Below, piece by piece: positions 43,114 through 46,907 of a stretch of 58,880 nt of DNA (positions are counted from its first letter, which is position 1; the number at the start of each line of letters is the position of its first letter). The translations under genes were made by a program, and so were the position numbers. The DNA lies in NCBI GenBank assembly GCA_013002535.1, contig JABDJK010000039.1, forward strand, positions 1 to 58,880, given 5' to 3'. The DNA comes from Hyphococcus sp. (GTDB lineage: Bacteria > Pseudomonadota > Alphaproteobacteria > Caulobacterales > Parvularculaceae). Below the pieces are notes generated by a model, which saw nothing but the letters and a program-made list of their open reading frames with translations, ran no database searches and had not been told where the DNA came from.

Positions 43114-43599
43114 TCAGCTTCGATGGTAAGGATGGTTGGAAAGAATTGTCATGGAACGATATATTTGTTCCATAAGCATAACCCGCACAAGCTTGTGGGG
43201 CCAAGTCGCGGCGCCAAATGAGATCGTTAACGCCGCTTTCGATTTGACTTCTTCTGTGTGACCGTCAGCGCCGCCAATCAAGAATGTTGCATTTGAAGCG
43301 CCGCTATCGCGCTGTTTTAGGAGCCAGTTCGCCAGGATGTCGCTCGACATATTTTTCCCCTTTTCATCCAGGCAAATAATAGCGGAATTCTCCGGACAGG
43401 TTTTCAGGAGCGCTGCGCCTTCATGCTGCTGGCGTTTTAGGCCTGTAAGCGCCGTCGGCGCCTCAAATTCATTTATTGAGATTTCGGGAAAACCAATGTT
43501 GCGGCCAATAGCGCTAGCACGTTCCAGGTAATTTTCGACCAAAGCGTGCTCGGCGTCTTTCGGTCTTAGCTTCCCGATGGCGGTAATTTGGATGCGCAT
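43114..43599 (-). CDS. rlmH: 23S rRNA (pseudouridine1915-N3)-methyltransferase RlmH
   Basis: A 161-residue SPOUT methyltransferase acting on the 70S ribosome at helix 69. Features: MRIQITAIGKLRPKDAEHALVENYLER, LDEKGKNMSSDILANWL, FLIGGADGHTEEV (SAM-binding knot) and the family ending MEQIYRSMTILSNHPYHR. The frame extends upstream to 43617, but the ATG at 43599 gives the canonical start. It is paired with rsfS 18 bases upstream, the usual rsfS-rlmH arrangement. Confidence 0.95.
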   Translation of the reverse strand: MRIQITAIGKLRPKDAEHALVENYLERASAIGRNIGFPEISINEFEAPTALTGLKRQQHEGAALLKTCPENSAIICLDEKGKNMSSDILANWLLKQRDSGASNATFLIGGADGHTEEVKSKAALTISFGAATWPHKLVRVMLMEQIYRSMTILSNHPYHRS

Positions 43600-43617
43600 G
43601 GTTTGCGCTGCGCGCAC

Positions 43618-44055
43618 TCAGGCGTCGGTTTTCATCGGAGCATGAGCCGTTTCCGACCAAACCCGCTCGAGATTATAAAACTCGCGCACTTCGGGGCGGA
43701 AAAGATGGACAATGACATCGGCGGCGTCGATTAGCACCCAGTCGCAGGCGTTGGCGCCTTCGATCTGCGCGCGGCCAAATCCCGCGCCTTTCAACCTGCG
43801 CATCACGTTATCCGCCAGTGCGCCAACATGGCGCTGGGAGCGACCGGACGCGACCACCATATGGTCAGCAATATCGGTTTTCCCCTCTAGCGGGATCGTT
43901 ACAATATTCTCGGCTTTGCCGTCATCAAGTTCGGAAAGAATTATTCGGAGAATTTCTGCGCTTAGCGCCTCCGGCGTTAATTCGCGAAGCGCTCCGCTGA
44001 TTTCTTCGTCGCCAGCGTCTGAAATATGATCATCGCTATCGCTGACGATCTTCAA
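43618..44055 (-). CDS. rsfS: Ribosomal silencing factor RsfS
   Basis: A 145-residue RsfS (Iojap family), which binds L14 on the 50S subunit and blocks subunit joining when nutrients run low. Core motifs: ILSELDDGKAENIVTIPLEGKTDIADHMVVASGRSQRHVGALAD in two adjacent blocks, GANACDWVLIDAADVIVHLFRPEVREFYNLERVW. The first 25 residues are an acidic extension. It is separated from the upstream NadD-EgtD gene by 128 bases, longer than other gaps in the cluster, so it may have its own promoter. Confidence 0.94.
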   Translation of the reverse strand: MKIVSDSDDHISDAGDEEISGALRELTPEALSAEILRIILSELDDGKAENIVTIPLEGKTDIADHMVVASGRSQRHVGALADNVMRRLKGAGFGRAQIEGANACDWVLIDAADVIVHLFRPEVREFYNLERVWSETAHAPMKTDA

Positions 44056-44183: not shown

Positions 44184-45806
44184 TTAATTGTTGCTCAAAA
44201 GGCACGCCGCGAACCAGTTTTTCGGGTCCGTCCACATTCTTTCAAGGCGCCAAGGCGTTGATGCGAACAGCGCCTTCAGCCGGTCCGTCGAATATTTATA
44301 CGAATTTTCGGTGTGTATTGTCTCGCGAGGACTGAGCGGAAACTGGCGTCCGTTAACTATGATTTGAGTTTCTCTGACAGCGCGTAAATGCATCTCAATT
44401 CGACTGTCCACCTCATTGTAGAATGCGAAATGTTCAAAATCATCGAGATTCAATTCCGCATCCAGCTCGCGTTTCATCCGGGCCAGGAGGTTTAAGTTGA
44501 ACGCAGCCGTGACGCCTTCCGGATCGTTGTAGGCAGCATTCAAAATGTTCGATTCCTTTTCCAGATCAACGCCGAGCAAGAACTTTGCGCCCTCGCCCAA
44601 AGTTTCGCTGGCGCGTTCCAGAAATTTCGCTGCTGCGGCCGGCGGCATGTTGCCGATCGTTGAGCCGGGAAAAAATCCGAGCCAGCGTTTTGCGTTTGGG
44701 AAAAATCCGTCGGGCAATTGAATTGACGTATTAAAATCTGCACATACTGCGGCGACGGGCGGCGCGATTTCGCCAGAAATCGCAGAAGCGTTTTCAAGCA
44801 AATATGTCTTGGAAATATCCATGGCGACATAAGCCGCCGGTTCTTCAAGGCCGTTCATCAACCATTCGATTTTTTCGCTGGCGCCTGACCCGTACTCGAA
44901 AACCGCTGCGCCGTCGCCGATTGCCGCTGTTATATCTTCGGCGTTCTTGAGGAAAACTTCTTTCTCTGTGCGCGTTGGATAATAGGCTTCGAGATCGGTG
45001 ATCTTCTGGAAAATTTTCGACCCGAGTTCATCATAAAAATATTTTGGCGAGATCGTTTTAGGCGATGCTGAAAGCCCTTCGACGACGTCCGTCAAAAAAT
45101 CACCGAGATCCGGGTGAAGGTCGTAGAAAAATTCAAGCGGGCCATGCGGCGCGTAGAGATCGCCGACATTTTGAACACCGATTGCCCGCTCGTCTTCGTT
45201 GGCGCGAATTTCAGTCGAGGAAATTGGATTGTTGGTCGAAGAAATGAAAATCCACGCGGGCGCCGCTAATCCCACAAGCAACTTGGCGTCATCTTCAGAG
45301 ATTTGATGCTCGCGCAAATATTTCGCCGCGATGCTTCCGGTCGCGGCATCGACGCTGCCAGGGCGGCTGAATACGGCGATAGGCATTGTGTTGGCGATTT
45401 CTCGCCAATCCTTCCAGCGATGGAAATTCTCAAGACTGTCCGCCCCCATCAGCCATACAAATTTTGTCGCCGGAAAGTCGCGCTGCAGCGCCGCCATGGT
45501 GTCAATTGTATATTGAAGATCGTGGACTCGTTCGAAATCACTAACAATGATCTGCGCGTGGTTCGCGACAATCTTTGCTTCACATAAACGGTCGTCATAG
45601 GGTGCATATGATTTTTCATCTTTTAGCGGATTGCCGGGCGTGACGAGCCACCACACTTCATCCAAGCCGAGGGCGTCAATTGCGGCAATTGCAATGTCAC
45701 GGTGACCATGATGTGCTGGATTAAATGAACCGCCTAGCAAGCCGACGCGCTTTTGGGCTTTTTGAGAAACGTCGGATGATTTGTCCTGCACGATGGTCAG
45801 CTCCAA
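44184..45806 (-). CDS. Fusion: nicotinate-nucleotide adenylyltransferase (NadD) + EgtD-type L-histidine N-alpha-methyltransferase
   Basis: A 540-residue two-domain protein. Residues 20-205 are NadD: GLLGGSFNPAHHGH (22-35) with the nucleotide-binding His pair, LMGADSLENFHRW and ISSTEIR (195-201). NadD makes deamido-NAD from nicotinate mononucleotide and ATP. From about 228 to 540 is an EgtD-like SAM methyltransferase: DLHPDLGDFL, KTISPKYFYDELGSKIF, EAYYPTRTE, SAM loop EYGSGASEK (304-312), FFPGSTIGNM, and DPEGVTAAFNLNLL through SRIEMHL. EgtD trimethylates histidine to hercynine, the first step of ergothioneine synthesis. Both domains look complete, except that the usual NadD C-terminal end is replaced by the junction. 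No Met occurs between residues 141 and 317, so no internal ATG could start the second domain. The gene occupies the normal nadD position between obgE and rsfS. Confidence 0.9.
   Translation of the reverse strand: MELTIVQDKSSDVSQKAQKRVGLLGGSFNPAHHGHRDIAIAAIDALGLDEVWWLVTPGNPLKDEKSYAPYDDRLCEAKIVANHAQIIVSDFERVHDLQYTIDTMAALQRDFPATKFVWLMGADSLENFHRWKDWREIANTMPIAVFSRPGSVDAATGSIAAKYLREHQISEDDAKLLVGLAAPAWIFISSTNNPISSTEIRANEDERAIGVQNVGDLYAPHGPLEFFYDLHPDLGDFLTDVVEGLSASPKTISPKYFYDELGSKIFQKITDLEAYYPTRTEKEVFLKNAEDITAAIGDGAAVFEYGSGASEKIEWLMNGLEEPAAYVAMDISKTYLLENASAISGEIAPPVAAVCADFNTSIQLPDGFFPNAKRWLGFFPGSTIGNMPPAAAAKFLERASETLGEGAKFLLGVDLEKESNILNAAYNDPEGVTAAFNLNLLARMKRELDAELNLDDFEHFAFYNEVDSRIEMHLRAVRETQIIVNGRQFPLSPRETIHTENSYKYSTDRLKALFASTPWRLERMWTDPKNWFAACLLSNN

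Positions 45807-45857: not shown

Positions 45858-46907
<1,050 letters not shown>

Follow-up and report, generated by a model that had tools for sequence, protein, structure and literature searches.

In the 58,880-nt stretch of Hyphococcus sp. DNA analyzed here (hereafter the window), nadD and egtD form one continuous gene. With a probability of roughly 0.8, we regard its product as a genuine bifunctional protein that arose from stop loss or an indel in a coupled nadD-egtD pair and secures co-production of the two enzymes, a reading that draws on sequence comparison. The N-terminal half (NadD) would convert NaMN and ATP to deamido-NAD, and the C-terminal half (EgtD) would trimethylate histidine with SAM to hercynine, which free EgtB, encoded elsewhere, would take on towards ergothioneine. 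We infer both enzyme activities from the conserved features described below. It is unusual for an essential housekeeping enzyme to be joined, as in these marine bacteria, to one that serves an unrelated pathway.

The stop-free frame comprises 540 codons, counted from TTG 45806, on the minus strand (44184-45806). The preliminary description had these coordinates right, but the gene itself is on the minus strand, and the plus strand contains many stops across the same interval. Between the two candidate starts, GTG 45791 is the likelier one, being preceded by TTGGAG with a duplex of -8.3 kcal/mol versus -0.3 for TTG 45806. The gene occupies the normal nadD locus, as had been proposed, and the order of its neighbors is kept in relatives (Table 1); their names obgE, rsfS and rlmH are our assignments from their letters.

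Table 1. Features of the fused nadD-egtD locus, in window coordinates
Feature	Position	Strand	Basis or remark
Fused nadD-egtD gene	44184..45791	minus	likely GTG start 45791; stop TAA 44184-44186
GGAG ribosome-binding site of fused gene	45801..45804	minus	duplex -8.3 kcal/mol with GTG 45791
NadD (nicotinate-nucleotide adenylyltransferase) domain, residues 23-202	45201..45740	minus	Pfam CTP_transf_like, NCBIfam, Foldseek
Linker, residues 202-221	45144..45203	minus	pLDDT < 50; without in-frame ATG/GTG/TTG
EgtD N-terminal extension, residues 222-238	45093..45143	minus	conserved across aligned fused proteins
TTG codon 238, SD-like stretch upstream (-8.7 kcal/mol)	45093..45095	minus	only in-frame codon close to the junction that might start EgtD separately
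EgtD (histidine N-alpha-methyltransferase) domain, residues 239-538	44193..45092	minus	Pfam Methyltransf_33, NCBIfam, residues
obgE, directly upstream of fused gene	45858..46904	minus	kept in relatives
rsfS, directly downstream of fused gene	43618..44055	minus	kept in relatives
rlmH, downstream of rsfS	43114..43617	minus	kept in relatives

Both halves of the fused protein are ordinary as enzymes. Besides the Pfam domains listed in Table 1, the NadD half scored 258.3 bits against PRK00071.2-2 (NF000843; curated equivalog cut-off 240), and the EgtD half scored 344.2 bits against egtD_ergothio (TIGR03438; cut-off 290.9), covering model positions 2-300 of 301. The earlier claim of one uninterrupted frame with a full NadD and a full EgtD thus holds above both curated cut-offs. 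The NadD half includes GGSFNPAHHGH (residues 25-35) and SSTEIR (196-201), in agreement with GxFxPxHxGH and SSTxIR, which we take to be the NadD motifs, and G26, F28, P30, H32, G34, H35, S196, S197, T198 and R201 are invariant among 12 aligned fused proteins. For EgtD, PMC8593015 names Y39, Y56, N166, Y206, E282 and S284 (mycobacterial numbering) as histidine-binding residues. Mapped by eye on an alignment, they correspond to Y258, Y275, N386, Y426, E500 and S502, all kept in the window's EgtD; none of them varies among the 12 of 15 fused proteins that were aligned. An AlphaFold2 model built with 30 sequences (mean pLDDT 87.3, pTM 0.62) predicts two firm domains with a disordered tether of about 20 residues between them, the pLDDT being below 50 at residues 1-14 and 202-221. 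The best Foldseek matches in the PDB were 4uy5 for EgtD (E 2.9e-29, TM by target 0.89, 37% identity) and 4wso for NadD (E 2.1e-9, TM by target 0.71).

The window's EgtD has the whole domain and the histidine-binding residues in common with known EgtD proteins (TIGR03438; PDB 4uy5/4uy6, 4pim, 7scf), but it is tied to NadD, its N-terminus is not free, and egtB is unlinked. Similarly, its NadD shares the whole domain and the usual obgE-nadD-rsfS-rlmH locus with known NadD (NF000843) but bears a C-terminal methyltransferase from another pathway. EgtD is also one half of a fused protein in EgtB-EgtD fusions and in the fungal Egt1; in those proteins the partner catalyses the following step of ergothioneine synthesis, whereas in the window it is an enzyme of the NAD pathway. 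NadR and the NMN adenylyltransferase-Nudix proteins likewise combine an adenylyltransferase with a second enzyme, but their partners belong to NAD metabolism according to NCBIfam names, and none of the names listed is a histidine methyltransferase.

To place the fusion among relatives, 62 genomes of the family were searched with the fused protein and the frames were then read. Within the genus (Hyphococcus/Marinicaulis, Parvularculaceae, with Marinicaulis placed in Hyphococcus by NCBI; 28 genomes, window included), a stop-free frame from NadD through EgtD was found in 15, i.e., the window and 14 further genomes, in answer to the suggestion that the two-domain architecture be sought elsewhere. 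The other 13 have separate adjacent nadD and egtD genes in the same order, with an in-frame stop between them in four (L005, L015, L016, L018) and egtD in another frame in nine; in five of the 13 (L023, L025, L026, L028, L030) the nadD stop and the egtD start overlap by 4 nt (GTGA/ATGA). The preliminary description had regarded two separate genes in close relatives as evidence against a fusion, and the congeners proved to be divided on this point. Although the window comes from a 116-contig assembly, an assembly or sequencing error that hides a stop at the junction is next to impossible, as the junction is also stop-free in the 14 other genomes, of which G019 is a single 3.47-Mb contig; for the genus as a whole, this explanation was rejected.

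Outside the genus, the sister genus g7 has a separate adjacent pair in all three genomes. G016 (genus g4) carries a fusion of 599 codons from stop to stop if two contigs join via an exact 141-bp overlap, and an ATG with an SD duplex of -5.6 lies inside its longer linker. Across the family, both matches fall on one contig in 45 genomes, and in 43 of these egtD and nadD are no more than about 4 kb apart; in the other two, G001 and G057, the genes are far from each other. Eight loci with both genes were read in g3, g5 and g8; in all of them nadD and egtD are divergently oriented, and in seven egtB lies between the two.

The junctions observed form a series within one genus: separate adjacent genes, genes with a 4-nt overlap, fusions with the old egtD start and fusions without it. 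A relic start at ancestral codon -13, with an SD duplex of -4.2 to -6.6, is kept in seven of the 15 fused genes (L003, L006, L007, L008, L011, L013, L014), for which both a fused and a separate product would be possible. The remaining eight lack it (L002, which is the window, and L004, L009, L010, L012, L017, L019, L020); L010, L017 and L019 have other in-frame starts only, with duplexes of -2.6 to +0.6. With the whole series at hand, the genus provides a natural system in which to test how coupled genes come to be fused, and whether joining them carries any cost or benefit.

The preliminary description had also argued that no ATG could start the second domain separately. Indeed, Met is absent between residues 141 and 317, and an ATG start is impossible, but in-frame TTG and GTG codons exist: TTG 164, TTG 176, GTG 178, TTG 238 and TTG 316, with 16S-end duplexes of -3.7, -1.7, -1.6, -8.7 and -2.0 kcal/mol, respectively. 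TTG 238 is the only one of the five whose SD-like stretch exceeds -4 in strength, and it borders the EgtD domain, downstream of the conserved N-terminal stretch. One could therefore propose that the frame is continuous, yet EgtD is also or mainly made separately, in relatives from the internal SD and start and in the window from TTG 238. The relic starts speak for this, as does L014, whose codon -13 is ATG in place of the GTG found in four near relatives, both being start codons; so does the strong duplex at TTG 238. We nevertheless find separate production unlikely: at the ancestral position (codon -13) the window's gene lacks a start codon, initiation at TTG 238 would lose the conserved stretch ahead of it, and Leu 238 is not shared by any of the other 11 fused proteins in the alignment. 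Moreover, the SD-like letters of TTG 238 encode the conserved LGDF, and the likeness may therefore be due to chance. Because the ancestral egtD ribosome site and start are lost there, the window's EgtD is probably made as a fusion only. A fusion that is made and then cut into two ordinary enzymes is very improbable; the predicted disorder of residues 202-221 would suit cleavage, but the length and letters of the linker differ among the fused clades.

Phylogenetic analysis pointed to several transitions. The NadD+EgtD tree, with the linker left out, requires five changes between the fused and separate states (5-6 in bootstraps), and the tree of the flanking ObgE, RsfS and RlmH requires four (4-5 in bootstraps), with well supported branches alone forcing only two in each tree. 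Both trees leave out G016; L003 is placed differently by the two, and the window's row forms a long branch on its own, joined to no partner with good support. A single clade of all 15 fused rows was rejected by the AU test (p 0.00098 for the flank genes and 7.4e-7 for NadD+EgtD), a rejection that does not tell gain from loss. Because 4-5 state changes are needed and a single fused clade is rejected, fusion and/or splitting has, judging from these trees, recurred within the genus. Repeated gain of the fusion is favoured by separate genes in g7 and family f5 and by the relic starts in fused genes, and splitting may have occurred in some lines, for instance beside L008. In the unfused clade L015, L016, L018 and L027, the SD and GTG start of egtD have been lost, and an ATG lies nearer the domain, with a weak SD in three of the four; as this clade is sister to the fused L008 in both trees, its genes may have been re-split. 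At another junction, that of G046 (L021:2055-2260), nadD ends in TAA and the stop-to-stop frame of egtD has no ATG, GTG or TTG before the conserved domain; egtD may start there at an ATC that follows GGAG or at some other codon, or a base may have been miscalled.

Four-fold sites differ by 0.64-0.67 between the compared clades (0.19-0.54 within most), and pN/pS was therefore used instead of simulating chance openness of the linker. The 14-codon linker of the start-less clade L004/L009/L010/L012 gave a pN/pS of 0.21, compared with 0.79 in a five-member fused clade that keeps the start and 0.84 in the start-less pair L019/L020, a contrast built on 14-18 codons, small numbers and non-independent pairs. 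The first value suggests that the linker is selected as protein in L004/L009/L010/L012, whereas that of L019/L020 does not point so.

At the level of the order, a search of 398 genomes, with matches listed down to about E 1e-69, gave no stop-free row with both domains outside the genus among the matches listed. Outside the family, at least 19 genomes (18 from f5 and one from f2 among the matches listed) match both domains with one or two stops between them, as adjacent genes. Six of these were read, and in all six the genes are separate and an ATG precedes the EgtD domain. In the class search (385 genomes drawn, window included), E <= 1e-95 was reached by the window only, a level at which more diverged fusions would escape. 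The scan of named genomes covered 80 of 582 loci and is no census. A Maricaulis record (L054, family f5) has 30 nt between nadD and egtD, and a Rhodobiaceae record (L056) has the order nadD-egtB-egtD. A different fusion was seen in G007 (genus g2, same family), where EgtB and EgtD share one 806-codon frame (L140:1-4001) with EgtB first; the domain order of fungal Egt1 is the opposite. In many genomes of f3, the open frame that contains the EgtD match is about 720-1000 codons long and may represent an EgtB-EgtD fusion as in G007. The literature search found no paper that describes a NadD-EgtD fusion; one study that names ergothioneine, EgtD and NadD together (PMC8223512) reportedly deals with pupylation.

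The window's own assembly (G000; 3.44 Mb, 116 contigs, rated 100% complete) was searched for further copies, as had been advised. The only PF10017 match is the fusion itself, and the PF01467 and PF10017 searches revealed no second NadD or EgtD. Two further PF01467 matches were rejected as NadD: one is CoaD-like, a name we assign from its letters, and the other is NadR-like (226 bits, below the cut-off of 341) and overlaps pnuC. The reported lack of EgtB near the fusion is true of the window, but egtB is present in the same genome on contig C46 (434 aa; TIGR03440 563.3 bits, cut-off 360), which rejects its absence from the genome. Both core ergothioneine enzymes are thus, by these scores, encoded in G000. 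On C46, egtB is divergent from the NAD kinase gene nadK (L034:1174-3314; 381.5 bits, cut-off 211). Two other FGE-sulfatase matches are on contigs C111 and C81.

EgtB above the cut-off was found in 25 of the 28 genus genomes; the others are G033 and G045, where the matches are partial and the contigs broken, and G032 (84% complete), with a weak match (7.4e-13). We fetched 20 egtB loci (L141-L160): the 24 other genus genomes above the cut-off contributed 19, with five left out because they were fragments or lay at contig ends, and the three g7 genomes contributed one. A divergent nadK adjoins egtB at 19 of these 20 loci, and the twentieth stops at a contig end. EgtB was also present in seven of eight further genomes, all seven from f5 (their loci include L161-L166), with nadK inside the fetched flank in 5/7, four of these being partial matches at the flank edge.

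These neighborhoods bear on the proposal that the fusion was selected for a specific link between NAD and ergothioneine, whether by coordinating their supply, by letting NAD state act as a regulator or by proximity. The nearness of egtD to nadD across the family, their direct adjacency in at least 18 genomes of f5 and the pairing of egtB with nadK in the genus and in f5 would agree with it. Against it, the two reactions have no shared intermediate, inherited gene order would account for the neighborhoods as well, the genes are far apart in G057 and G001 and divergent rather than co-directional at the g3, g5 and g8 loci read, and nearly half of the congeners (13/28) are unfused; we therefore rate such selection as distinctly unlikely. 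The double link of egtD with nadD and egtB with nadK is suggestive, but it could be inherited gene order. A broader idea, that ergothioneine synthesis in Parvularculaceae and Maricaulaceae is organised around NAD(P), with egtD kept with nadD and repeatedly fused and egtB kept with nadK, is doubtful. If it were true, the fusion would fix the ratio of the entry enzyme of a thiol antioxidant to NAD supply, and the genus would show every stage between coupled genes and an obligate bifunctional enzyme.

We therefore prefer co-production by a bifunctional protein. As egtD follows nadD so closely, the pair was probably translationally coupled in the ancestral lineage, in keeping with the 4-nt GTGA/ATGA overlaps of relatives, and the two frames would have become one when the nadD stop was lost or a small indel arose. 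NadD and EgtD act in different pathways and their reactions have no intermediate in common, and fixed co-production or a near-neutral change is thus the simplest account of the fusion; we infer such a benefit rather than channelling. Of the interpretation first offered, the fusion and both identities stand, and co-production fits best because unfused relatives have adjacent or overlapping nadD and egtD, while the tie between redox-cofactor supply and the thiol has gene-neighborhood hints only. Gene pairs coupled through short overlaps are widespread and are known to use termination-reinitiation, according to PMC10666635, and the present case is a coupled pair gone one step further, to fusion. 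For annotation, it is a warning that an EgtD may hide within a protein named NadD.

Elsewhere in the window, positions 500-2007 of the minus strand hold two adjoining near-copies of a gene whose small product has a signal-like start and, as its tail, PIPAALPLLLSGIAGLGFASR, which we presume to be sorting-signal-like.
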